DNA of 64,000 bases from Tetraselmis striata (taxonomy: Eukaryota > Chlorophyta > Chlorodendrophyceae > Chlorodendrales > Chlorodendraceae): NCBI GenBank assembly GCA_006384855.1, contig VCJN01002954.1, positions 1 to 64,000 on the forward strand. The letters run 5' to 3'. Below the pieces are notes generated by a model. The model saw only the letters and a list, made by a program, of their open reading frames with translations, was not told the DNA's origin and did no database searches. A program made the position numbers and the translations under genes. Of the stretch, positions 4,437 through 63,547 are shown one piece after another (positions within the stretch are counted from its first letter, which is position 1; each line of letters opens with the position of its first letter).

Positions 4437-7400
4437 ATGACTGACGCGAAGTATTTCACCACCACCAAAAAGGGTACTCCCCGCCCCGCCCCCCCCCCCC
4501 CCCCCCCCCCCCCCCCGCCCGCCGCGCCACTTCCTCCTTTCCCTGATACGCCCGCACAGGGGACAGCTACAAGGTCGTGTCCCACATCTGGCATGGTTGC
4601 GACCCCCCAGCAATCGCGGGCAGGGGTGCGATCGTCGGGGTCGCCGCGGGTATTGCACTGGTGGGCAGTGGGGCAAGATCTGCCTCCTGCCGCGGTCTAC
4701 CTGCGCTGGCTAGCAGCCAGGAGAGAGGGGGGTGGGGTTCACGAGCTCGGGCGCGCAGGCAGCCGCCAACTACCACGGCCCAGCCCTGGAGGGGCTGGCG
4801 CACAGGCAGCGCAGAGATGGGATGGGAACCTGCACCTGCAGGAGCTGGCTGCGGTGTTGGCCTCACGTTGACCCTCCCCTTCCCCCCACCCCCTCTCCTC
4901 AGGTGAGATCCATGAGCTCAAGGAGGAGCTCCGGAATGTGGACAAGGCGAAGAAGAAGGACGCGGTGAAGAAGGTGATCGCGTTCATGACGGTGGGCAAG
5001 GACGTGAGCATGCTGTTCCCGGACCTGGTGAACTGCATGCAGACGGAGGACCTGGAGCTCAAGAAGCTGGTGTACCTGTACCTCATCAACTACGCCAAGT
5101 CGCAGCCTGACCTCTGCATTCTCGCCGTCAACACCTTTGTCAAGGTTGCTCCCCCCCCTCCAGACTCTCCAAGCCCAGCTGGGCAGTCGGCAAAGGTGCT
5201 AAGCCACTTGTTGCCAGGGAGAGCACTCATCCCCCTCCCCCCCCCCCCCCCCCCCCCCGCTCCCTTTCGGGACCCCCGTGCTCCTTCCCTGCCGGCAGGA
5301 TTCGCAAGACCCCAACCCGCTCATCCGCTCCCTCGCCGTCCGCACCATGGGCTGCATCCGCGTGGACAAGATCACGGAGTACCTGTGCGACCCCCTGCAG
5401 CGCTGCCTCAAGGTGGGCGCCGCCCGGAAGTGTGGTGGAACCCTGCGATCAACCCCCTCCCCCCCCCCCTTTGGTTCCCCCGCTTGGTTCTGCCGTCTCC
5501 CACGACACCCACACACGCACCCAGAGCAACGCATGCAGTCTCAGGACAAAAGCACCCGAGAAAGAAAACATCCGCTGTGGACACCATCAATGTAGTGTAC
5601 TGTTACCCTGAATTTCACGGTAATATTCATATATAGTTTCATATTTGATTTGCAACATATTTGATTGCTTTTGATGAAGTGTGGACATGGATCACGCATG
5701 AGAAATTCTTGTCCCCCTTGTGAAAATGGGATGCTCAAATGCACTAGTTCCAAAATAATACCGAGTTCATTGCTTGTCGGTCTGGGCATCGTCATCCAAG
5801 CAGTGCACATTTGACGGTGCGGGTCTCAGCTTCTTACCGCGAGGGCCGCCCCGCCTGGTGCGCCGCCGCCCACAGGACGACGACCCCTACGTGCGCAAGA
5901 CAGCGGCCGTGTGCGTCGCCAAGCTGCACGACATCAACGCGGAGATGGTGGAGGACCGCGGCTTCCTGGACGCGCTGCAGGTTGCCCCCCCTTGGCCTTG
6001 CCATGCAGATGTGGGTGGGGGCGGGGGCGGCGCCGATGGTGAGGCTCTCGGACTCAGCAGGGCGGGGCCGCGCTGGCCGGGTGTGCGCCCGCAGGAGATG
6101 CTGTCGGACAGCAACCCGATGGTGGTGGCCAACGCGGTGGCGGCGCTGGCGGAGATCCAGGAGGCGAGCGGGCGGGACGTGTTCAAGGTGACTTCCAGCT
6201 CGCTGATGAAGCTGCTGGCCGCGCTGAACGAGTGCACCGAGTGGGGCCAGGTCTTCATCCTCGACTCGCTCGTCAACTACACGGTGCGCCCCCCTTCCCC
6301 GTTCCCCGGGGCCATGTATCTCCATAGCTCCCACGGCGCTGTGTCAGTTTTCAGTGAAACTTGGGGGAATCTCACTAACTTCAACGGAGGCCTGTGGTGA
6401 CATCATCACAGCAGCAGCTCTCGTCCTTTCTTTGGGGTGTGTGGGGGGGGGGGGGGGGGGGGGGGTACTTTAGGGCATGTTCCCCGTAAACCTAGGCAGA
6501 TCCTAGGCAGAGTCGTGCCATGTATCTCCATAGCTCCCACGGCGCTGTGTCAGTTTTCAGTGAAACTTGGGGGAATCTCACTAACTTCAACGGAGGCCTG
6601 CGGTGACATCATCACAGCAGCAGCTCTCGTCCTGTCTTTGGGGGGTGTGTGTGTGTGGGGGGGGGGGGGGGGGGTACTTTAGGGCATGTTCCCCGTAAAC
6701 CTAGGCACATCCTAGGCAGAGTTGTGCCATGTATCTCCATAGATCCCACGGCGCTGTGTCAGTTTTCAGTGAAACTTTGGGGAATCTCACTAACTTCAAC
6801 GGAGGCCTGCGGTGACATCATCACAGAAGCAGCTCTCGTCCTGTCTTTGGGGGGTGTGTGTGTGTGTGGGGGGGGGGGGGGGGTACTTTAGGGCATGTTC
6901 CCCGTAAACCTAGGCAGATCCTAGGCAGAGTTGTGCCATGTATCTCCATAGATCCCACGGCGCTGTGTCAGTTTTCAGTGAAACTTGGGGGAATCTCACT
7001 AACTTCAACGGAGGCCTGCGGTGACATCATCACAGCAGCAGCTCTCGTCCTTTCTTTGGGGTGTGTGTGTGTGTGTGTGGGGGGGGGGGGGTACTTTAGG
7101 GCATGTTCCCCGTAAACCTAGGCAGATCCTAGGCAGAGTTGTGCCATGTATCTCCATAGATCCCACGGCGCTGTGTCAGTTTTCAGTGAAACTTGGGGGA
7201 ATCTCACTAACTTCAACGGAGGCCTGTGGTGACATCATCACAGAAGCAGCTCTCGTCCTTTCTTTGGGGTGTGTGTGTGTGGGGGGGGGGGGGGGGGGGG
7301 TACTTTAGGGCATGCCCCGTAAACCTAGGCAGATCCTAGGCAGACTCACGCAAACAGACACGTGGGGTTCTTCCCCCTCCTGCGTATTCCCCAGCTCCGC

Positions 7401-10400
7401 TCGGCAGCTGGGTTGTGAGAGCGGATGGTCGGGCATGGCGCCGGTTGTAGAATTTCTAGGGTTTAATCCTGTGACCTAAGTAACCTCAGGAATTACCTGC
7501 CTGCTTCACGGCGCACACCCCCTAAAACACCTGCAGTATCGCAAAACAGACCTCGCCGTCCATGAATCGCAGTTCTCAACCCTAGATGTCCCATGTGCGT
7601 GCGGGGTTTAAACCCTAATGAAGCCTGCTAGCCCCGTAACAGCTGCCCAGCCTGGTACCTATTGTACTTGTACTTGTACCTATTGTACTTGTACTTGTAC
7701 TTTGGGCTGCCCGCCTCAGAGGCCCCCACTCAGCTGCCTGGCCCCCCGCGGGTACGCAGGCGCGCGACTCGAGGGACGCGGAGAGCATCGTGGAGCGCGT
7801 CACCCCGCGGCTGCAGCACGCCAACTGCGCGGTCGTGCTGTCCGCGGTGAAGGTCATCATGAAGCAGATGGAGGTGCGCCGCCAGTGGCTGCGGCCATGC
7901 CCGGGGGCAGGGGATGGCTTGGATGGCTGGGGCCCACAACGGTCCCGGCGGGGCAATACGAACCCCGCCCGGTACCAGTAAGAGCCGCCCGCCCTGCGCG
8001 CCAGTGGTTAACATGTCGGCGGGAGCATGGCGGAACCATGGCGGATGTTCTCATGGGCTGCGGATGTTATCGGGGCCACGTAAGCACCGCAAGCTTAGCG
8101 GAGGTCAGCTCAGTCTGACAGTTACCATGTAGTACGAGTACGTGGATGCTGTGGGGCCGGGGCTTCCATGAGTATCGATGCGATACCTCGCGAGCGTCGT
8201 GCTTTTGGGGTCGACGTTTGCCTTGGTTGCTGCCTTTAGGACGCCGCTCGAGGATCGCGCCAAATTCGCCGTCGAAGCGAACCGCAGCCCGCCACACGCA
8301 GATGTTCTGGCCAGGGCTCAATGCCGACAATCATGCTTAGTCCTGTAACTTGACTCGACTCCCCGTCAGTTTACCACCGAAAGGCGCTTTGGCATCCCAC
8401 GTAGGTCTGAAGAGGGACTCCGCGGCTGTTGCCTTGCTAGGCAGGATTTGATTTATACCGGCGTGGTTGGGTTAACTTAAGCCAGCTGCAAATGGAGTCG
8501 CACACAATCCTGGTCCTGGCAGCCGGAGGCTGGTGGCTGAGGCTGAACCCCCCCCCCCCCCCCCCCCTGCCCGGTTACCTTTATCCCCTCTGCCTGCGCC
8601 TACACAGCTCATTCAGAACCAGGAGACCATCAAGATGCTGCAGAAGAAGATGGCGCCGCCGCTGGTGACGCTGCTGAGCGCAGAGCCGGAGATCCAGTAC
8701 GTGGCGCTGCGGAACATCAACCTGATCGTGCAGCGCCGCAAGGAGGTGACACCACGCCTGGCCTCCCTCCCCCCCCCCCCCCCCACCCACCCCCTCCTCC
8801 GTCTGTTCACCCACCACATGCTCACAGCCCCCCCCCCCCCCCCCCCCCAACCCCAAAGATCCTTGCCCATGAAGTCAAGGTGTTCTTCTGCAAGTACAAC
8901 GACCCCGTGTACGTCAAGCTGGAGAAGCTGGAGATCATGATCAAGCTGGCCAACGAGCGCAACATCGACCAGGTCCTGCTCGAGTTTAAGGAGTACGCCA
9001 CCGAGGTGGACGTGGACTTCGTGCGCAAGGTGCGGCCAGCCGTCTGCCCACGGACAGCGGACGGCGCTGCGCACCCCGCGCAAGGCGCCACCATGCCCCC
9101 CGCTGACTGACGCGCTGATTGTGTGCGCAGGCGGTTCGCGCCATCGGGCGCTGCGCTGTGTCCCTGGAGCGCGCCGCGCAGCGCTGCATCAATGTCCTGC
9201 TGGAGCTGATCCAAACCAAGGTCAACTACGTCGTCCAGGAGGCCATCATCGTGATCAAGGTGCCGCACAGCCCCCAGCCCCCTCACATTCTGCCGGCCAG
9301 CGCCCTGCCCCCACCAGCAAGCTGAGCCCGCTTTCTGCCCCCCCCCCCCCCCCCCCTCTCCCCCTCCCCCCTTTCCTTCTCCTCCCTCCTCCTTGCGCCC
9401 ACTCTGCAGGACATCTTCCGCAGGTACCCCAACCAATACGAGTCGATCATCGGCACACTGTGCGAGAACCTGGACACCCTGGATGAGCCCGAAGCCAAGG
9501 CATCCATGATCTGGATCATCGGCGAGTACGCGGAGCGCATCGACAATGCAGATGAGCTGCTCGAGACCTTCCTCGAGACGTTCCCCGGTGAGCGGGCCAG
9601 GGCGTGTGCTCGCCGGCGCAGGCTGCGCCCTTTGAGACCCACGGCGGCCCCTGATTTCCGCGCTCCTGACACCTTGGCTTGCTGCGGGCAGAGGAGGTCA
9701 GCAGCGTGCAGCTGCAGCTGCTCACAGCCACGGTGAAGCTGTTCCTGAAGAAGCCCACGGAGGGGCCGCAGCAGATGATCCAGCTGGTGCTCAGCAACGC
9801 CACGCAGGAGACCGACAACCCGGACCTGCGGGACCGCGCCTACATCTACTGGCGCCTGCTGTCCACAGACCCGGAGGTACGCCCCCCCCCCCCCCCCCCC
9901 CCCTTCTCCCACTGGGCTCCAGCCCTGCAATGCAGAGCATGTGGCAGCATGTGCAAGCGCTGGGATTAATGTGCCATTTTGGCTGTGACAGGCCGCGAAG
10001 CAGGTGGTCCTTGCGGACAAGCCGGTCATCAACGACGACACGAACAACTTGGATCCCGCTCTCCTCAAGGTAGAGACCCCGTCCCCTCCCCCCTTTAGCT
10101 GCCCGTGCCTGCCTCCCCCTGCCGGCGCTGACGATCGTCGCTCTCTGGATGCGCAGGAGTTGCTCGAGAACATCGGCACGCTGGCCTCGGTGTACCACAA
10201 GCCCCCGGATAGCTTTGTCTCCCGCGCTCGGCTGGCGGTCACCAAGGGCGACGACCTGGAGACTCACCGCTTCGACGACTCGGAGGATGGGATCGGTGCG
10301 CCGCCCGTCCGCTGTCAGCCCGCGCCTGCTGTCAACCCTGCACGCAGCGCCCTGACCGCTCCGGTTTCCAACCGCTAATGTTGAGCCTTGCCATTCCTGC

Positions 10401-11617
10401 GGTGCAGGCCGCGCCCGCGACGTCAGCAACGGCTCCGCCACCCAAGGGGGCGCGGGCCCCAACTTCGACGACATCCTCGGGGACCTGGGTGGCTCCTCCG
10501 CACCCGCGCCCGCCGCTGCTCCAGCCCCCGCCCCGGCAGGCAACGACCTGCTGGGCGACCTGCTGGACCTGGACACCCCCGCGCCCGCCGCCCCGGGGCC
10601 AGTCCCGATCGCGCCCATGCCCGCGGGTGGCGACATGCTGGGGCTGGACGACATGTTCGGGGCGCCGGCCCCCGCAGCAGCGCCCGCCCCGGCTGCCCCG
10701 AGCCTGCCGGAGGTGCTGGACACCGCGCGCGGCAAGGGGCTGCGGATCTGCGCGCGCATCGTCCGCGCCGGAGGCGCCCCCACGTACAAGCTCCAGTTCC
10801 ACAACTCCTCCGCGGGGCCCGTCAGCGGCATGATGATCCAGTTCAACAAGAACAGCTTTGGCCTGGTGCCAGCAGCGCAGAACATCGCGGTAACCCCCCC
10901 CCCCCCCCCCCCCCTCCATTGTGATGGATTACCTGCCACGCTGCTGTCAGGCCTTGGCCACTTCTGACGCTCGCTGCTGTCTTTGCCCGCCACCAGGTGG
11001 GGCCCATCACGCCAGGCGCTACCGTATCCGTGGACCACCCTCTGGCCCTCAGCGCCGCGCAGGCGGCGCCCGGGCCGGCAAAGCCCCTGCTCCAGGTCGC
11101 CATCAAGACCACCGAGCTGGGCGTGCTGTACCTGAACGACAACGTGTCCCTCGAGCCCTTCCTGGAGGAGCGCTGCGGAGTGGACAGCCAGCTCTTCATC
11201 GGCATGTGGCGCAGCTTGCCGGAACCCAACGAGTCGTCGAGCCAGCTGCAGGTGCGTGTGCCCGGCCGCCTTCCAGGCGCTGCGACCCGGGACTTGTTTG
11301 CCATCCCCGACACTGGACATCACCGGCCGACACAGTGGCGCTCGCCTCACCTATTGGGTCCTATGCAGGTCACCATCTCCAACGCGGAGGCTGCCGCTGA
11401 GGTGCTGAAGGCGAAGAACCTCTTCTTGATGGCGCACCGCCAGGTGCCCGGCACGGGGCAGGACGCCATGTACCTGGCGGGGCATGCCATGGGCGCGCAG
11501 GTGCTGGTGGAGCTCAAGTTTGTGACCGGCAGCCCGGGGGTGCAGTGCTCGTGCAAGTGCGAAAAGGCCGACCTGCCGCCGCTCGTGTTTCCTCTCATCC
11601 AGGCGGCGCTGCAGTGA
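4437..11617 (+). CDS. AP-1/AP-2 complex subunit beta (beta-adaptin)
   Basis: Large subunit of a heterotetrameric clathrin adaptor at the trans-Golgi/endosome or plasma membrane. ATG at 4437 begins [13 protein letters not shown], split by intron 1 exactly before the conserved GEI. Exons: 4437-4473, 4903-5144, 5299-5412, 5876-5980, 6095-6283, 7760-7873, 8608-8745, 8859-9029, 9131-9259, 9410-9587, 9692-9876, 9992-10069, 10157-10295, 10408-10889, 10997-11251, 11369-11617. Together they encode 934 aa, normal for the family. Residues 1 to about 605 are the HEAT-like trunk ([67 protein letters not shown]). An Ala/Pro-rich hinge follows with a clathrin-box-like LLDLD, then a complete ear ending [12 protein letters not shown]. 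The sequence resembles plant beta-adaptins, which serve both AP-1 and AP-2, so the complex cannot be assigned. Introns are long and carry C or G tracts. A TGTAA signal follows the stop by about 100 nt. Confidence 0.97.
6311..7345 (+). repeat. Tandem array of a 208-bp unit (5 copies plus a partial) inside an AP-beta intron
   Basis: The word GCCATGTATCTCCATAG recurs at 6311, 6517, 6725, 6935 and 7143, giving periods of 206, 208, 210 and 208 bp. Each unit ends in a GT-rich stretch running into 12-25 G residues, then TACTTTAGGGCATG. Each also contains the short direct repeat CCTAGGCAGATCCTAGGCAGA. Copies differ mainly in the length of the GT/G stretch, and a truncated sixth unit ends near 7345. 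The array lies wholly within the intron between exons 6095-6283 and 7760-7873. Open frames inside it are repeats, not protein. Confidence 0.97.
7659..7702 (+). repeat. Short minisatellite of TTGTAC words
   Basis: The run TATTGTACTTGTACTTGTAC is repeated twice, just upstream of the 7760 acceptor in the same AP-beta intron. Confidence 0.9.
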
Positions 11618-12354: not shown

Positions 12355-13120
12355 TAAACCAATCACGGCATGCCCCCTCTCAGAAGCAGGAAGGACGAGT
12401 ATGATTTAGCGATGATGTCTTATCGCTAGATGGTCAGGCCAGGGTAGGGGCAAGAGGACAGGCCAGGGCGGCGGAAGAGCGAAATGGCGAAAAAAAATAA
12501 AAAGATATGTGTCTCCACCGGCCGGGCCGACTGTGAACTCCTTCCGGAGGATCGTCCGCAATCCCGTACGACCGACGCACAGCTGTGAGTGAGGCTACTC
12601 TGTTTCCAATCTCGCCCGGTTTCCCACAGTTTAACGGACCATCCGCGCCACTCTTCCGAGTGACACGGAGACCGACTGCGGCCTTCGCGGGACGGCCGAT
12701 CATGTTGCCCCGACAGGCACAGCAGCTTGGCGGCGATCCACACATCGAACCCCCGGACTTCCGTGACAGTTGGACGTGACGCCAACCGGATGAGGAAGAT
12801 TTGTGTGCGTGGAGAATATATACTGAACTTTTGGACAACACAAAACACTTGCGGTTGTTCTATCGTGCGGATACCGTGAGCTAGAAATGAACGAATTTTG
12901 CTTATGCTGGCACCATATGGCCCTTACCTCCCGTAGATCTCCAGAGTTCCAGTCTGGCTCGTATTCGCTGCTCGTTTTATTTTAGTTCGTGCTTGTTGGG
13001 CGGGTTATTTGCATCCTACAGCCCGTGCGGTACCTGTGTAACTGTGTTACAGTAATATACTACAGGTCGCCACTTCTACAGTCTACCTGTACAGGTATGG
13101 ACTACGTAGTTTAACTTACA

Positions 13121-18234: not shown

Positions 18235-21122
18235 CTGACTGACTTGCTTGCATGCGAGTGAGCGCAATTGTGGCCCGGCGGCTGTCTCGCGGCGCAGGAA
18301 CTCCTCTTCCTGACGCGCCTCGTTCAGCTGGCGCTGTCCGCGCGACCGCAGCTGCGCGAGAAGCGCTACAGCTTCCCGGAGCCCTCCAGCCTGCTCGTAC
18401 GCACCTTCTACCCGATCCTCTGCGAGATCATCGCCGACGCCAAGATCGCGAAGCTGCAGAAGGTCGGGAGCCCCCCCCCCCCCCCCCCCCCCCCCCCCTC
18501 TTATTTACGACTTCTGTTGGGCGCTGTCGCAACTCGACAGTGCGTGTGAATTCAGCATCTTCTATTCTTTCACTGTTGTTAGTACCTGCCGTTGTATTCC
18601 GACACCGCGCTGACACGGAATGCGGCTCGCGCAGACAAGCCAGCGCGAGGTGCCCCCCAACCCTGTGCACGAGGAGCTGGTGGACATAGTGAAAAACGAC
18701 GAAGTCGCACGGAGCATCGCCATGGTGAGCCCACGGCCGCGCGCGGTCCCACCCTCGGCTGGGCCGACTAACCACTATTTGCCTGCTTCGACCGCGGGTA
18801 ACCGGGTGTGAACCCCCAACGACCGCGGCGTCTCGCCGCGCGTGGTTGTAGCATGCCTGTCGGCTATGCCGATGACTTGTCAGCTGACCGGTTTGCTTTG
18901 CCGGGTGCCCCCCCCTGGCCTTTGCCAGGTGTACACGCTGGACTGCCTGACAACCGGCGACCTGCGCACGGCGAGCATCTTCCTTGCCAGCCTGTCGGCT
19001 GCGCTGGCCGACATTTCGCACAAGGTGCGCCACCCCCCTATCGCCCAGCAGCGATGGCGGCACGCGGCGAGCTTCAGACCCACTGCAGCTCAATCGTCTC
19101 GGTTCGCTGCGGCCGGGATCCGCCCCGAGCTGATCGTCCGCGTAAGCGTCTGATCGATATGTCGGCGTGATGACCCCTCAGGCGCACTCGGAGTGGAGCG
19201 CCTTCGCGTTCAGCCTCTGCCGCCTGCTGCAGCGGATGTTTGAGGAGGGGAAGGCGCCGGCCAAGGGGCGACTGTGGGCCCTCGCCTTTGACGGCGTGCT
19301 CCAGCGGCTGGTCGACACCGACCACCAGGCAAGAACCCCCCCCCCCCCCTAAATATGTTTATATGTTACATATTTATTGTAGATGTGTTGTTATTTACAA
19401 CAACTAAATATATTCTATGTTGTATAATTGTAATTTATGTTACATATTTATTTCTTTAGGCTATATTAACTTTTTGTTTGTGATTCTAATCGCCGCTGCC
19501 CCGCCCCCGCCTGCAGGTGCACAAGCAGGTGCTGTCGCTGCTGCTGGCGGCCGCGCCTGACATGGCTCAAGAGTCTCTGGTGAACAGCGTCAAGCGCGCC
19601 GCCAAGGAGACGCGCCGCAACCGCCGCCGGTGAGGCGCCGCCCACCGCCCCAAACCCCTCTGCGCACCAGCTGAGTGCCCGCAGCTTGCAGGCCGTGACG
19701 GGGCCGTGCGCTGGCAGCATTATTGAGACAGCTGTGGATGCGGTGCAGGTGGAAGAAAGCGCGGGGGCGGGCGGAGGAGGGCGGCGATGCGGGGGCCAGC
19801 GCCGTGGCGCCTGCCGGCCTGGAGGAGTCCTACCTAAAAACGTACACCACCCTGGCCGGCATGTTTGAGGTGCGTCGCTTCCTCCAACCGCACCGCTTCC
19901 TGAGCAGTGAGCACCCCCTCCCTGTGGAGCATGACCCCCTCCGGCACTTACAACAGTGTTTGTATATGCACGTACAGGTAGATGCCATGACGGGTCACAT
20001 TCTGTGTGTTTTGATTTGTTTGTGAATGTGTGTATTCGCATCTCAGGTCTCATTCATCTCACCCCTTTACACATAGATGTCATAGTCACAGCTCAAGCTT
20101 TGTGTGTTTGGATTTGTTTGTGGATGTGTGTATTCGCATCTTACGTCTCATTCATCTCACCCCTTTACACGTAGATGCCATGACGGGTTTAACTCTGTAT
20201 GTTTTGGATTTGTTTGTGGACGTGTGTATTGTTGTCTTATGTCTCATTCATCTCACCCCTTTACACGTACATGCCATAATCATAGCTCAAGCTTTGTGTG
20301 TTTGGATTTGTTTGTGGATGTGTGTATTCGCTTCTGAGGTCTCATTCATCTCACCCCTTTACACGTAGATGCCATAGTCATAGCTCAAGCTCTGTGTGTT
20401 TTGATTTGTTTGTGGACGTGTGTATTCGCTTCTGAGGTCTCATTCGTCTCACCCCTTTACACGTAGATGCCATGACGGGGTTAACTCTGTGTGTTTTGGA
20501 TTTGTTTGTGGATGTGTGTATTGTTGTCTTATGTCTCATTCATCTCACCCCTTCACACGTATATGCCATGACGGGTCACATTCTGTGTGTTTTGATTTGT
20601 TTGTGGACGTGTGTATTCGCATCGTAGGTCTCATTCATCTCACCCCTTTACACGTAGATGCCATAATCATAGCTCAAGCTTTGTGTGTTTGGATTTGTTT
20701 GTGGATGTGTGTATTCGCATCTTACGTCTCATTCATCTCACCCCTTTACACGTAGATGCCATGACGGGTTTAACTCTGTATGTTTTGGATTTGTTTGGGG
20801 ATGTGTGTATTCGCATCTTACGTCTCATTCATCTCACCCCTTCACACGTAGATGCCATAATCATAGCTCGGGCTCTGTGTGTTTTGGATTTGTTTGTGGA
20901 TGTTTGTATCATTGTCTTATGTCCCATTCATCTCACCCCTTAGAGTTTACACGTAGATGCCAAAATGATATCTCAAACTGTGTGTTTTTGGATTTGTTTG
21001 TGGATGTGTGTATTCGCATCTTACGTCTCATTCATCCGCCTCGCCCCTTCCTGCCTGTCGCACAGGGGCGGCTGACGGAGGAAAACTGCCCCGAGCTCTT
21101 TGCCCTCATCAAGCCCACTTGA
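15007..21122 (+). CDS. NELFB: Negative elongation factor subunit B (NELF-B / COBRA1)
   Basis: In animals NELF-B is a core subunit of NELF, which with DSIF holds RNA polymerase II in promoter-proximal pause. Exons: 15007-15162, 15428-15661, 15778-15993, 16185-16454, 16582-16703, 17150-17229, 17357-17526, 17612-17656, 18298-18462, 18635-18724, 18929-19024, 19182-19328, 19517-19629, 19749-19869, 21066-21122. They encode 693 aa (human about 580-630). Family landmarks, in order: LESHQYILHQARKILLSRI; LKPVPTTFLKQLAQDPELF with VQRQVWELDKNLL; RAYDMAECL and VYKGIMQLCLAKFRDSE; LCTLRSQLLMALHD with CRGEPCHKLAWTLDACLR; MVLRDPSTLHLLLTAALWQ; TLDCLTTGDLRTASIFLAS. The last matches the human segment on the NELF-B C-terminal HEAT-like fold. 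Intron 12 has a GC donor (CAG|GCAAGA). Two TGTAA signals lie about 190-200 nt downstream. NELF is widely described as missing from land plants. Confidence 0.92.
17684..18000 (+). repeat. Two-copy tandem duplication (about 160 bp each) in a NELF-B intron
   Basis: Two diverged units, about 17684-17836 and 17846-18000, share the order GGGGG.AT.GTA, CTTTGTGGACATGTGTAG, CACCTAA, a CAG run, CTCGTTGGCGACGGCCG and CTATCTAAAA. They lie in the intron between exons 17612-17656 and 18298-18462. Confidence 0.8.
18196..18234 (+). repeat. Longest homopolymer in the window: 39 consecutive G
   Basis: An unbroken G run on the sense strand of NELF-B, about 60 nt upstream of the exon 9 acceptor. A C run of about 27 follows in the next intron (from about 18471). 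Tract length in the true genome may differ, since runs this long are difficult to sequence. Confidence 0.95.
19355..19480 (+). other. AT-rich block inside a NELF-B intron
   Basis: A strongly AT-rich island in otherwise GC-rich sequence. It contains the direct repeat TATGTTACATATTTATT twice (near 19360 and 19434). The second copy is followed by TTTCTTTAG, which could serve as a cryptic acceptor. No coding potential. Confidence 0.7.
19975..21050 (+). repeat. Tandem array of an approximately 97-bp unit (about 11 copies) in the last NELF-B intron
   Basis: The word CTCATTCATCTCACCCCTT recurs with spacings of 95-99 bp from 20061 to 20935, with a degenerate last copy at about 21035. Each unit reads GATGCCAT..., TTTGTGTGTTTGGATTTGTTTGTGG, ATGTGTGTATTCGCATC, then the shared word and ACACGTA. 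Two variants alternate: A contains CATGACGGGT and B contains CATAATCATAGCTCAAGC. Their order is A B A B B A A B A B and a divergent last unit. The array fills most of the intron 19870-21065 and its last copy merges into the real acceptor. Because periods are not multiples of three, the long frames here are not genes. Confidence 0.95.
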
Positions 21123-23704: not shown

Positions 23705-26700
23705 TCAGGCGTTGTGCGGCAGGCTCTGGTGGTGGTCCTCCTTCCAATGCCGCTCCTCCTCGTCTTCATAGAAGTCGTACTCGTCGTGATATCCGTAGGC
23801 TTCGTCGTCGCGGGAGCGCTCCTCCCCCTGCGCCTCAGGCTGCTCCTCCTCATACAGCTCCGCGTCATACTCCTCCAGCGCGAGCCAGCGCCCCAGCATA
23901 TCGAGTACCTGCTGCGCCGGGGCACTGCGCTCGACGGCGGCCGCCGCGCCGTCCTCCTCGTGGCCGCCATCGGCCGCCACTGGAGCGACGGCGCTGGGGG
24001 CGTGGGCGCGCGGAGGCTGCCACACTGCAGCCTGCTGCCCGCGGTTGCGTAGGGCGGCCAGAGCGCGGCCCACCACGCCTCCAGCCTTCTGCGACGAACG
24101 CCGCGCCTCGGCCGGCACCGCCTCGGCGTTGTCGAGTGATGGCCAGCGGATGGGCAGCGGGTGAGCCTCCGTGTTCATCACGAAAGTGTCGAGCGGCAGC
24201 AGGTCTCGCTCCTCGAAGATGAGGTACAGGTACTTGAGCGTCTCCGCCAGCCAGAAGCTCTCCATCTTGTCGCGCTTCTTGGGCGGCACCTGCAGCACGC
24301 TGTCCAGCGAGGCGTAGCCGCCGCTCCGCACGCGGGTGTGCTTCTCAAAGGCGCGGAAGATGAGCCACGCCCACTCCCGGTACACAGGGTCGCGCGTCAC
24401 TTGCCACATCACCCACAGGCTCTCCACCGTCTCGGGGCGTAGCAGGTTGTGCGAATCCTGCTGGTATATCTGAAAAAAAAGGAAAGTCGACGAAGGGGAG
24501 GAGGGGAGCGGCGGGTGGTCGGAGGTCAGGGTCCAAATACCGCACAGGGGAGTTACAGAGCGGGCGCACGCGGTGATATGTCGAATTGTCGAGTTGTCTG
24601 GGAGGGGCCAAGTGGTCGCACGGACCTCGAAGTGGCCGCGGCCGACGTCGTGCTTGTGCTGCTTGGGGTAGTCGCCGTCATGCTTGGAAAAGTGTACGAT
24701 CTCGGGCGCCAGCCCCACGGGCGTCTCGCGGTACGTCTCGTAGCACGTCAGCATGAGCTGCTGAGCGAGCTCGATGTCGCTGATGGGGCTCTTGGCGGTG
24801 GAGGTGTCTACGCCCTGCGTACCCCACCCCACCCGCACCAGTTAGCCTTGCCGAGCGACACTGGAAACACACAATGCCGCAACTGGCGACAGGCCTACGT
24901 CTCGACTGAAACTGATCCGACTTGTCGAGACTTGCCGGACTGAGGCACCAGCTAGCTCTCGAGACGGTTTCCGGGTCGGGTTCAGGCGGAGTCGACTCGA
25001 AGTGCTTGTTATCCGACTCGACGAAACTCGGAGTTTGGGTCGACTCCGGGCCGAGTCGAGCCGTCACAAGCAGAAGGGGCCATCGGAAGCTAACTCCGAG
25101 ACAAAGTGGCGGGAGCGGAGGTGGGGTATGGGCAGCTCACATGGTAGTGGCCCAGCGCGAGCAGGCCGGGCAGGAAGCACACTAGGTGGTCCATTTTGGG
25201 CTGCTTCTGCGCGCTGGAGCCGGAACCCTTGAGCTCCGCGACGTAGGTGAGGCCGCCCACGCCGGCAGTGGTGTCGATCAGCCGCTCGCGCACGCCGCGC
25301 ATGGCCTCCTTGTACATGCGCAGGCAGCGCTCGTCGCGCCGGCCGCTGATGACCCAGCACTTGAGGAGGTACTCGTAGAACGAGTCGCCGCGCGCGCCGA
25401 GCGTGAACACGTTGCCGCGAAACTTGCCGGTGTTGGGGTTGATCATGATGGGGCACAGCCCCTGCAGCCGGCCCGAGGCCTGGTCCACGATATCCATCAC
25501 GCCCGAAGCAGCGGCCTCGTAGCTGGGCGAGCCAGTGAGGCGGCTGAGGTAGCTGAACTCAAGGTACAGCGTGGTGACCTCGCTGGTGGAGCTGTCAGGG
25601 CCCCACTTGGGGCTCGACGCCGTGCCTGCTCCCAGGTTTACGTCGGAAAAGGGCACGCCGCTCTTGGTGCGGAACGCAGGCATCAGCCGCTCGCCCAGCT
25701 CCTCTGCCTTTGCCAGCATCGTGGCGTCGCCGTCCGTGAGGTTGTACGCCGAGAGCAGGCCGCCCAGGATGCGGATTGTTGTCTCGAATAGGTTGACGTT
25801 CTTGGGGCGATCCAGTCTGGACATACAGTCCAGGTGGGGGGGGGGGGGGGGGGGGCTGTGAGGTGAAAAGAAACATGGGGATGATACCCTCGGGAGGGGG
25901 GGGGTGTGAGCGTCGTGGCGCACCTCATCGAGTTGGACACCCACTGCGCCGCCTCGTCGTACTCTTTCTTCAGTCCCATCAGCAGGAGCGTGTCCAGCGA
26001 GTCCACGAGCGTCAGGCCCAGGTCGAACCACGAACCGCTGGTGCGCGACATCGGGTGCAGTTCGTCTTCCCCCCAGGCAGCCTCCTTGTAGCCCTGCGAT
26101 ATTCAAGTAGGGGGGAATGGGACGGGGGCGCGGGCGCGGGGATTCGGTCGACGGCCTACGGAGGAAGGAAACGCGGCCTCCGAGTACAGATCAGGAGCGA
26201 TATATTTGCATACGACGTCGCGGAGCCAAAGTTATCGCCAAGGGGTTGGGTCGCTCATTATCTACCAACCCAGCGACTATGGCATGTCGGATTCGTATCG
26301 GGTAGGAGAAACTGTGTTGTCCCAGATGACGACCCTCTCGCGACTCGGAGAATCCGAGAATCTTTCATTTCCAGACCGACAAGATATATTTATGATTTGT
26401 TATTCGTTGGTTGTGACAAGAGAAGCAATCGATAAAGGGGGGGGGGGGGGGGGGGGGGGGGGGGGTCGGGTCTCGGGGGAGGCACCTTCCAGGCCCATTT
26501 GGCAGCCTCTTTTACTGCGTTCGCACGGGCGACGCTGTCCGTCATACACGCCAGCGTCTTGTCACCGCTGCGACCGCACGCGTCCGCGCCCTCGCATATC
26601 TGGCACGATCGGCAGCGCACGCTGTCGTCCTCCGAGGTGCTGCTTGCGGCCTGCTGCGCGACGATGGGGCCCGCGCCCATGCGCCTGCCCGGCAGCCACA

Positions 26701-35462: not shown

Positions 35463-36498
35463 ATCCCGGGCCACTCCAATAGCGGCACTAGGCCGAATGT
35501 GATGTGAAGGCGCCGACAGGAAAGGGGCTTCGAAGTAGAGGTCTCGCAGCAAGGAGCGGAAGTGGGGGGCTCCAACCCAGAACGGGGCGCCACGGGCGTG
35601 CAACAGACCCATCGCCAAATCCGCCGCCAGCTCGGTCGCGTCCCCTTCCGCCGAACGTAGAACGCCTTCCACAGCACAACATCCCGGGCCACTCCAATAG
35701 CGGCACTAGGCCGAATGTGATGTGGAGGCGCCAACAAAACAGGAAGGGAGAGAGTGCTCAACGAGTAGGGAATGGAGAGCCGACCGGGCCAGCAACGACG
35801 TAAGACGCCGGTGTCCAGCGCACGATGTTCCGCCCAGCGCCAGATCCGCCGCCATCTCGGCCGCGTCCCCTTCCGCCGAACGTAGAGCTCCCTTCCATCA
35901 CAACATCCCGGGCCACTCCAATAGCGGCACTAGGCCGATTGTGATGTGGAGGCGCCGACAGGACAGGAAGGGGGAGGGTGCTCAAAGAACAGCGAACGGG
36001 GACTCGACCGGAGCAGCAACGACGTAAGACGCCAGTGTCCAGCGCACGTTGTTCCGCCCAGCGCCAGATCCGCCGCCAGCTCGGCCGCGTCCCCTTCCGC
36101 CGAACGTAGAGCTCCCTTCCCAGCACAACATCCCGGGCCACTCCAATAGCGGCACTAGGCCGAATGTGATGTGGAGGCGCCAACAAAACAGGAAGGGAGA
36201 GAGTGCTCAAAGAACAGCGAACGGGGACTTGACCGGAGCAGCAACGACGTAAGACGCCGGTGTCCAGCGCGCGTTGTTCCGCCCAGCGCCAGATCCGCCG
36301 CCAGCTCGGCCGCGTCCCCTTCCGCCGAACCTAGAGCTCCCTTCCCATCACAACATCCCGGGCCACTCCAATAGCGGCACTAGGCCGAAAGTGATGTGGA
36401 GGCGCCGACAGGACAGGAAGGGAGAGAGTGCTCAAAGAACAGCGAACGGGGATTTGACCGGAGCAGCAACGACGTAAGACGCCGGTGTCCAGCTCACA
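35463..36498 (+). repeat. Tandem array of a 223-bp unit (about 4.6 copies)
   Basis: ATCCCGGGCCACTCCAATAG recurs at 35463, 35681, 35904, 36130 and 36354 (periods 218, 223, 226, 224). Units also share GGCACTAGGCCGA, GATGTGGAGGCGCC, GACGTAAGACGCC and TTCCGCCGAACGTAGA. The first copy is the most diverged. The array ends about 200 bp before the left end of the mobile island. Parallel open frames on both strands follow from the repetition and show no protein character. Confidence 0.95.
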
Positions 36499-60097: not shown

Positions 60098-63018
60098 ATG
60101 CCGCTGGAGGTGAGCGCGGTGGCTGCGGCGGAGGTCTTCCGCCTGTACAGCTGCTGCCAAGGCGACCCGCACACCTACGTGCTGGACCTCCGCCCGCAGA
60201 AGGAGTTCAAGAAGTCGCACCTGATGCTGGCCTACAGCATCCGTCTCACCGCGGACGAGAAGGCGCTGCTGGTGAGCGTCGGCCCGCGCCCAGTGACGAC
60301 CTGCGCACCCCGTTTTCCCCACTGACGACGTGGACGACCGGCGATGGCGGTCCGCTTGCGCCCACACAGCGCACTCACCCCACCCCAAACCCTCACAGGA
60401 CTACTCCAAGAACCAGTACGCCTTGAAGTGGAGTCCCGGCTGCTGGTGCGCGTCCCAGCGCACTAACACCCCCCCCCCCCCCCCCTTCCCGGCCTCTCTC
60501 CTCGCCCTCCGCCATCAAGTCACCTCCACCACTAACGTCACAGCCTTCTACGGGGGGGCGAGGAGGCGGCCGGCATCGTAGCCAGCAACACCTGCAAGGC
60601 ATGCGGCAGACGCGGCAGACAAAGCCACTTGCAGCTGTCCATCCATGCGGCAGGCGCGCGTGGCGAGGTGGTCCAGGGTGTGACGATGGGGAGGGGGTGG
60701 AAGGCGCCGCAGGGGGGCATAGGGCCGGGTCCAGGTTTGCTGAGAGGGAGCAGGTCCGGGGGGGGGGGGGGGGGGGGCATATGTGCTCACATGCCCTGGC
60801 ACGGCGGCGCGTGCAGGTACGGGAAGCACATCTTTGTGTACGGCGAGGCGGGCCTGAAGAAGGACCACCCGGTGCTGGAGTTTCTGCGGAGGGACGGCAA
60901 GGCGGCGCGTGTGACGTATTTCAAGGATGGGTGAGCCGCCAGGCTGGGACTAGGGGCGCTGGGAGTGGGGAGGGGGGGGGGGGGGGGGGGGGGGGGTATA
61001 GTCATGCTGATGCCTCCTCTTTCCGCCCTGCTCAGGATGGATGCCATCGCAGAGGAGTACCCCTTCCTGGTGACAGCCTCCATCAAAGCCAATGTCACCA
61101 GGAGGCCGTACCCCAGCGAGATCGTGCCGGGCCTGCTGTACCTCGGCGACTGGGACCACGCGGCCGACGCGCAGCAGCTGGAGCAGCTCAACATCCGCGG
61201 CATCCTGACCATCCACAACCACCCGGACAACCTGCGCCCTGGCCCGCGCATCAAGCACCTCAAGGCAACCCCCCTCCCCCCCCTTTCGTGCCCACCCGTA
61301 ACCACGCTTTGGGCTTGCTATACGCATGTCATGCACCAAAGAAAGAATGACTGCCGCACATATCTGGAAGCCCAACAGAGCACACCACATTTATGGCACG
61401 GACCCCCCGACTCTGTAGTGGCGCAAAACAGTGAATTCGTTTGCGACCCGGGGACCCAAGCAAATGTTACTCTTTATTGCGAACCTCCTCATGACGCTCT
61501 GACCGGTACAAGATCTAGGGATGGAAGGCGCCATCATACGCATGTATGCATGCGCGTGAGTGTGTGCCGGCATGGGCGGGTTTTAGGGTGGGGGGTGGGG
61601 GAGAATGGGGGGCGCTGGGGCGGGAGTGTGACGGCGGCTGTCGGCTGCAGATCGAGGCGCCGGATGTGGAGAGCCACGACATCTCGCAGCACTTTGTGCG
61701 GAGCTTTGACTTCATCGAGGAGGCGCGGGCGCGGAAGAGCGCGGTGCTGGTGCACTGCGGGGCAGGCGTGAGGTGGACGCCCCCCCCCCTCCCCCCCCTT
61801 CGCCCCCCGCCACGCTCCCGTGGGGTCCACTTATCCTCACATGGCGTGGTCCACTGTCAAGCAAAGGAGTGACCCCCCCCCCCCCAAACTGCCCCCCTTG
61901 CAGCCGCTCCGCCACCCTGTGCGCGGCGTACTTGATGCGCAAGCGGCTGTGGACGTGCCACCAGGCGATGACGCACGTGGTGGAGTGCCGCAGCATCGCA
62001 GACCCCAACGAGGGCTTTGTCGGCTGCCTGCACGCGCTGGGGACCGCGCTGGGCGTCAGCGCCGGCGGCCCGGCCGCCAAGGCGGGCGCCGCGGAGGCGA
62101 TGGTGGGCGAGAAGGTGGTGGTGCGCGAGGTGGGTGACGGCGGCAAGAAGGACCGGCGGCGGGAGGAGCCTCGCCACGGCCGGCACGACCGCGACCGGGA
62201 GCGCGACCGCGGGCGGGACGGCCGGCGGGAGGAGCGCAAACGGGGCCGCAGCCGGAGCCGGAGCCCCGAGCGCGGCGCGCCAGAGTGTGCGGGCGCAGGG
62301 GAGGCGTTCCTGGTGCTGGAGGTGGTGAAGGACGGCAAGGTGGTCTCCAAGCTGGAGATACCAGAGCTCAAGCCCAACCAGCGGTGCGCCGCGGCTGCGC
62401 CCCTCACCCTCCCCCCCCCCCTCCCCCCCCTCGCTCAAGTGCACGGCCGTCCGTTGAAAAGGCGGCCACCGGCGCCAATGCGCCCGCAAGAGCCCGTGTT
62501 ATGAGGCAGAGAGTGGGGTTGCATGCCGGCGATGGGTGCCGCCGCGGTGATGAGAGCACCACCTGAGCCAATAAGGACATGCCTTACCTGCCAGCGGTCA
62601 GTTGCAGGCGGTAACTATATCGGAACTAGAGCGAATGTACCTACAGGCCCGATGTGACCCCAACCTAATTCTCACTTATATCACGGGTTCTCACATGCGC
62701 GTCGGCACCTACCTACGAATGTGCGCAGTTGTTCCGCTATGGTTTCTGTCTCCACACATAACCTCTGAGAGGTTCGGCGCGGTCTCCTTTGCGGCGGTGT
62801 CATTGCTGCGTCGGAATTGTCTCGGACATATGCAGGCTGGATTCTCATCACCCTGGGCGGCACCCTGACACCGGCGCATCTCCTCCCCCGCTACCGCTGT
62901 CCCTGCCCCGTCCAGCCCCCCTCGAGGCATGACGCACATGCATGCGCTGCCTCCCCAGGTGCATCTTCGGCCGCGCGCCCACCTGCGACGTCGTCCTGGA
63001 GCACCTCTCCGTCTCAAG

Positions 63019-63049
<31 letters not shown>

Positions 63050-63547
63050 ACCCTTCCCTTAGCCCCTGCAGCACAAGACCCCCTCCCCCCCCCCCCCCCA
63101 CCCACCCATCCCACCCACCGCGCGCGTCAGGCAGTCCGCTCACACTCGGCGCGCTCAACCACCCCCCCCCTCCTTCCCCCTTCAGGCAGCACGCGCAGCT
63201 GTCGCGCGACGACGCCGGCGGCCTCTCCCTTATGGACCTCGGCACCTCGCACGGCACCAACCTGAACGACGTCTGGCTGCGCCCCAACGCCGCCAAGCAG
63301 CTGTCCGCCGGCGCCGTCATCCGCTTTGGCGCCAGCACGCGCTCCTACCGGGTGTGCCCCCCCCCCCCCCCCCCCCCCCCCCTCCCCTTCTCCCCCCCGC
63401 CCCCCGAAGAGTGCACAGCCCCACAGGCAATTGATCCCGACACACTGACGCTGAGGCTGAGCCCCCCCCCCCCCCCCGCCCCTCGTCGCTCCCCTTTCTC
63501 CCTTTCCCAAAAAGGTCGCCTCCATCAGCGGCAGCGCCAAACGCTAG
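60098..63547 (+). CDS. Rhodanese + dual-specificity phosphatase + RS-like linker + FHA fusion protein
   Basis: ATG at 60098. Exons: 60098-60271, 60399-60445, 60817-60930, 61036-61264, 61651-61772, 61904-62383, 62959-63018, 63186-63351, 63515-63547, encoding 474 aa, all in phase. Residues 1 to about 125: rhodanese-like (YVLDLRPQKEFKKSHL, HIFVYGEAGLKKDHPVLEFL, AIAEEYPFL). The active-site loop position lacks a clear Cys, as in MAP-kinase-phosphatase CH2 domains. Residues about 130-260: DSP domain (YPSEIVPGLLYLGDWDHA, candidate acid in EAPDVESHDISQHF, intact loop HCGAGVSRSAT). Residues about 285-330: Arg/Asp/Glu- and RS-rich linker ending RGRSRSRSPERG. Residues about 345-474: FHA (RCIFGRAPTCDVVLEHLSVS, RQHAQL, LGTSHGTNLNDVWL). 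The rhodanese-DSP order matches STYXL1/MKP proteins, but here the catalytic Cys is present. Intron 4 uses a GC donor (AAG|GCAACC). The FHA suggests phospho-Thr targeting and the RS linker a nuclear site; both are inference. Confidence 0.93.

Follow-up and report, generated by a model that had tools for sequence, protein, structure and literature searches.

An FHA (forkhead-associated) domain and a phosphatase domain occur together in PP2C-type enzymes such as KAPP, in which the FHA domain is a kinase-binding part; these enzymes use a PPM catalytic domain, not a Cys-based dual-specificity phosphatase (DSP) domain, and are not known to have a rhodanese domain. One PPM protein bearing an FHA domain has been reported from an oomycete (PMC10925823). 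FHA-directed dephosphorylation has been described for NIPP1 (PPP1R8), whose FHA domain brings phosphoproteins, among them the splicing factors SAP155 and CDC5L, to the associated phosphatase PP1 to be dephosphorylated (PMC5645368). A rhodanese-like domain followed by a DSP is the layout of the MAP-kinase phosphatases (MKPs), such as DUSP6, and of the animal protein STYXL1 (MK-STYX), which is described as a pseudophosphatase (PMC10761714). The present analysis concerns a gene of the green alga Tetraselmis striata that appears to join such parts in a single chain. It lies on the + strand at positions 60098-63547 of the window analyzed, which covers the initial 64 kb of contig C2384 (360 kb; GenBank VCJN01002954.1) in a genome assembly of 224 Mb and 2903 contigs. 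The only strong rbcL match in the assembly, on contig C1177, agrees with a green alga unless that contig is foreign: its best PDB match is the Chlamydomonas Rubisco 1gk8 (1044 bits), against about 585-588 bits for red-type chains such as 1bwv and 4f0h.

The explanation held here with moderate confidence is that the gene encodes a green-algal phosphatase in which an FHA domain of the NIPP1/kanadaptin type stands in cis with a rhodanese-DSP half of STYXL1-like layout and retained catalytic residues, and which would dephosphorylate proteins on which, or next to which, its FHA domain has docked. As far as seen, the domains are familiar ones and their combination is new.

Domain architecture

The spliced model read from the DNA predicts a protein of 474 residues. 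Pfam placed a Rhodanese domain at residues 25-118 (27.8 bits, cut-off 22.2, E 3.5e-6), a DSPc domain at residues 146-272 (94.8 bits, cut-off 33.5, E 4.7e-27) and an FHA domain at residues 391-457 (59.3 bits, cut-off 20.7, E 5.1e-16), bearing out the rhodanese-DSP order of MKPs and STYXL1 that the original prediction had proposed. Nine Pfam families were matched in total; four further overlapping families passed their cut-offs with scores below those of FHA or DSPc, namely Yop-YscD_cpl over the FHA domain and PTP-SAK, Tc-R-P and Y_phosphatase over the DSP. An NCBIfam scan of the protein returned 4 matches, all far under cut-off.

The catalytic set of the DSP is intact in the sequence, with H223, C224, R230 and S231 forming the HC-X5-R-S/T signature and the general acid D193 aligning with an Asp of DUSP22. 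The protein has the MKP-type arrangement of a rhodanese (CH2) domain and then a DSP with an intact motif. The original prediction was also right that HCGAGVSRSAT is kept; STYXL1 has FS for HC in this motif, a substitution given in PMC8907265 and also seen in the STYXL1 chains compared here. Because the HC site is intact, the algal protein is not classed as STYXL1 and is at most an active relative; STYXL1 also ends after the DSP, whereas the algal protein continues with the FHA domain. The rhodanese-like domain lacks the loop Cys of a catalytic rhodanese: its loop reads VYGEAGLKK, and the Cys residues among positions 1-134 are at 19, 20 and 73 only.

In the FHA domain, the GR, SxxH and GTxxN landmarks of the family are kept as R394, S408, H411 and SHGTNLN. 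Many FHA domains have an Asn at the place of H431, which is the residue also found there in NIPP1 and kanadaptin in the alignment. The best of 19 FHA matches in the PDB were kanadaptin (SLC4A1AP; E 5.5e-16, 45/110 aligned positions identical), which is not known to have a phosphatase domain, and NIPP1 (E 7.2e-15, 41/112). By this similarity the domain is of the NIPP1/kanadaptin type. NIPP1 borrows PP1, whereas the algal protein has a DSP on the same chain, and a scan of it for the RVxF-like pattern of PP1 docking ([RK]x?[VI]not-P[FW]) found none. The protein is accordingly not NIPP1, but its way of working may be similar. Other FHA-bearing genes in the genome include L032, the kanadaptin-like L035 and the NIPP1-like L036, named by resemblance.

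Gene model and continuity of the fusion

The nine exons and intron 4 are as follows, all on the + strand.

60098..60271, +: exon 1, start codon (first in-frame ATG) and N-terminal part of the rhodanese-like domain (VLDLRPQKEF...SH); spliced model and Pfam
60399..60445, +: exon 2, part of the rhodanese-like domain; GT-AG at its borders and reading frame preserved
60817..60930, +: exon 3, rhodanese-like domain with the loop VYGEAGLKK lacking Cys; spliced model and Pfam
61036..61264, +: exon 4, end of the rhodanese-like domain, short linker and start of the DSP (RPYPSEIVPGLLYLG); spliced model and Pfam
61265..61650, +: intron 4, GC-AG borders; gapless DUSP22 alignment across the exon junction
61651..61772, +: exon 5, DSP with the general acid D193 and HCGAGV; spliced model and DUSP22 alignment
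61904..62383, +: exon 6, C-terminal half of the DSP (SRSAT...), spacer, Arg-rich/RS linker (about 62137-62284) and first FHA strands (FLVLEVVKDGK...); spliced model, FHA matches in the PDB and codon-position GC
62959..63018, +: exon 7, FHA core (CIFGRAPTCDVVLEHLSVSR); spliced model, Pfam and FHA alignments
63186..63351, +: exon 8, FHA domain (QHAQL...SHGTNLN...FGASTRSY); spliced model, Pfam and FHA alignments
63515..63547, +: exon 9, final 10 residues and stop codon TAG; spliced model

The coordinates, exon chain and motifs agree with the original prediction. Seven of the eight introns have GT-AG borders and intron 4 has GC-AG, and the DUSP22 alignment runs without gaps over the junction that it leaves. 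The start codon is the first in-frame ATG downstream of an in-frame stop, and the catalytic motif HCGAGVSRSAT is itself assembled across intron 5 from exons 5 and 6. On the 3' side of the gene, contig position 64027 has a TGTAA motif, which is used as a poly(A) signal in green algae. Long C or G runs are present in several of the introns.

The DSP and FHA parts are joined within exon 6. Its 480 bases alone encode the C-terminal half of the DSP (SRSATLCAAYLM...), then the spacer and the Arg-rich linker, and finally the strands with which the FHA domain begins (FLVLEVVKDGKVVSKLEI), so that the fusion does not come from a chimeric gene model. All nine stretches tested, including the linker and FHA exons 7 and 8, had their lowest GC at codon position 2 and a GC of 0.88-0.97 at position 3. 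For the linker the values were 0.88/0.64/0.94, and its third-position GC of 46/49 was reached by 97 of 20000 shuffles. Both the kanadaptin and NIPP1 matches run from exon 6 through exon 8, and since they begin in exon 6 and the coding GC pattern continues beyond it, it is unlikely that the FHA exons belong to another gene, the outcome that would have undone the original prediction. As far as DNA can show, the DSP-FHA fusion is real.

Occurrence of the architecture

Genome searches with the protein and with the FHA, DSPc and rhodanese families were read exon by exon and can miss genes, and the resulting lists are lower bounds. With the protein as query, the genome yielded at least 12 matches. 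Eight are the gene's own exons on C2384 (8/9); the remaining 4, on contigs C1380, C2683, C2669 and C2477, are distant matches to the DSP part, within residues 145-308 at 30-38% identity. At least 19 FHA and at least 26 DSPc matches were found, and C2384 is the sole contig common to both lists. None of the rhodanese matches (at least 11) lies on C2384, the gene's own split rhodanese domain having been missed. The rhodanese-DSP-FHA architecture was thus found once in the genome, as a lower bound. Passages on the architecture and on STYXL1 kinship in PMC10925823, PMC2175518, PMC8907265 and PMC10761714 contained no rhodanese-DSP-FHA protein, which is not proof of its absence from print; an excerpt of a TriTryp phosphatome study names SMAD/FHA among the domains discarded as poor matches.

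Proposed function and alternative explanations

In the proposed working, the FHA domain would dock on a phosphothreonine in the substrate or in a partner of the substrate, and the 44-residue Arg-rich linker would give the DSP reach to phospho-residues nearby, which the DSP would strip by its Cys/Arg/Asp mechanism. The rhodanese domain, lacking a catalytic Cys, would serve as a protein-binding module; CCT subunits are reported to bind the rhodanese-like domain of mouse STYXL1 (PMC10761714). Targeting and catalysis, split between NIPP1 and PP1, would be joined in one chain. If the fusion is active, evolution would have coupled a Cys-based phosphatase directly to a reader of phosphothreonine, providing a simple natural test of how FHA docking directs dephosphorylation, a question otherwise studied in the two-protein NIPP1:PP1 system. 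If the STYXL1 kinship also holds, a pseudophosphatase of the axoneme would have a relative whose catalytic site is intact, and this would bear on the role of the STYXL1 ancestor.

A more specific version, in which this one-chain, NIPP1:PP1-like DSP with its own phosphothreonine reader and a linker targeting it to nuclear bodies acts on primed splicing or transcription factors, is put forward tentatively. That the protein is recruited to phosphorylated targets in the nucleus or in splicing, as originally proposed, is supported by analogy only, through the resemblance of the FHA domain to those of kanadaptin and NIPP1 and the recruitment of SAP155 and CDC5L by the latter. The proposed attachment of the FHA domain through an RS-rich (arginine/serine) linker held for the FHA domain, which is fused downstream of the DSP according to Pfam, and in part for the linker: its 44 residues include 18 R, 3 K, 11 D/E and 5 RS/SR dipeptides with a short RS tail, making it more mixed-charge than RS. 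Nuclear speckles are reported to gather proteins with Arg-rich mixed-charge domains, and the nucleolus to gather those that are blocky or more basic (PMC9324279). By analogy, the linker may also help to direct the protein to a nuclear body.

Several observations weigh against the proposed FHA-targeted phosphatase of STYXL1-like layout. The net charge of the linker is about +10, which by the account in PMC9324279 points to the nucleolus rather than to speckles, and its RS portion is short. The DSP scores higher with other phosphatases than with STYXL1: in a phmmer search of the PDB with the N-terminal 284 residues, DUSP22 was best (79.5 bits) and the first STYXL1 chain stood in row 43 among the best 60 of 83 matches (50.3 bits), and BLASTP gave 88.2 bits with DUSP6 over the DSP (54/147 identical) and 63.5 bits with STYXL1 over both domains (66/265 identical). 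An hhalign comparison with two STYXL1 chains aligned no more than residues 106-273 (probability 97.8%); for the rhodanese part by itself, the hhalign result against STYXL1 was weak (probability 4%). Searches of the spliced protein against prokaryotic contigs (24 pattern matches) and viral contigs (4 pattern matches) confirmed none, a result with little bearing on eukaryotes. Moreover, the protein is known here from its sequence alone, from which we infer its expression, phosphatase activity, phosphothreonine binding, localization and targets.

With regard to STYXL1, the rhodanese part alone had no significant match in the PDB by phmmer (best E 0.18, DUSP10 1.4); given this and the weak hhalign result, the kinship does not rest on the rhodanese half, over which the BLASTP alignment extends and the phmmer and hhalign alignments do not. 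The features shared with STYXL1 are the module order, a short interdomain stretch and the pattern 'PYPxEIxPGxxYLG', in which PGLLYLG/PGRIYLG contains an additional residue ahead of the YLG strand that is absent from DUSP22 and DUSP6. The short interdomain stretch, this additional residue and the lack of an Arg cluster like that of DUSP6 speak for STYXL1 over the MKPs. That the extra residue in the 'PYPxEIxPG' region defines STYXL1 is suggested by few sequences. Fast divergence between species has been reported for STYXL1 (PMC8907265) and can depress its score. The kinship of the rhodanese-DSP half with STYXL1 is considered plausible but unproven.

The STYXL1-like features open an alternative that the original prediction, right in noting some of them, left out of account. 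STYXL1 is counted among the radial spoke 3 (RS3) proteins of the mammalian axoneme (PMC11779644), and the algal protein could be its active counterpart there, in RS3 or in assembly, with the FHA domain anchoring it to a phosphorylated axonemal partner and not to nuclear targets. The genome contains one match (62.6 bits) to CFAP91, a base protein of RS3, which suggests that the alga makes cilia; together with the placement of STYXL1 in RS3, it makes a ciliary role possible, and the module order and short interdomain stretch are common to both proteins. This alternative is to be taken seriously but is nonetheless rather unlikely, since the linker is Arg-rich/RS, the FHA domain is nearest to kanadaptin and NIPP1, and orthology of the algal protein with STYXL1 is unproven. 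In addition, RS3 is described as only a shorter form in Chlamydomonas (PMC12423330), and, according to PMC12399478, Tetrahymena has no identified STYXL1 orthologue. An MKP-like enzyme, in which the rhodanese domain docks MAP kinases and the FHA domain is a second handle, would share the domain order and would fit the good DSP scores with DUSP5, DUSP4 and DUSP10 as well as DUSP6. It is judged quite improbable because the rhodanese-like part (residues 1-134) has no Arg cluster, containing only KK 38, KK 88 and RR 98, and none follows directly on the strand SHLMLAYSIRL, where DUSP6 has RRLQKGNLPVR, its kinase-binding motif. DUSP6 furthermore has no FHA domain and has a long interdomain stretch where that of the algal protein is short.

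The two remaining alternatives question the enzyme or the gene itself. A protein acting mainly as a scaffold or pseudo-enzyme, with an intact motif and little activity, would be in keeping with the rhodanese loop lacking Cys and with the pseudophosphatase nature of its possible relative STYXL1 (PMC10761714), but the presence of all of H223, C224, R230, S231 and D193 makes it highly unlikely. Least credible is an exon-joining or assembly artefact in which the FHA exons form a separate gene: the model was read from DNA alone and introns 6 and 7 interrupt the FHA coding sequence, but the DSP, linker and first FHA strands share one frame in exon 6, where the FHA matches already begin, and the intron phases and codon-position GC continue from there. 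The FHA-targeted phosphatase is the preferred explanation.

Other features of the window

Elsewhere in the window, the following features were recorded.

4872-11614, + strand: beta-adaptin-like gene, with Adaptin_N at 4872-5633 and a B2-adaptin appendage at 10925-11614
6311-7344: 5 tandem copies of a 209-bp unit (96% matches), lying between the Adaptin_N and appendage matches
12501-12790, - strand: signal recognition particle RNA, best Rfam model Metazoa_SRP (80.5 bits)
20001-21036: a 98-bp unit repeated in tandem about 10.6 times, within the stretch of minimum GC in the window (0.493)
23708-24841, - strand: glycosyl hydrolase family 47 match (201 bits)
35608-36497: 4 tandem copies of a 225-bp unit, which long open frames of the - strand overlap
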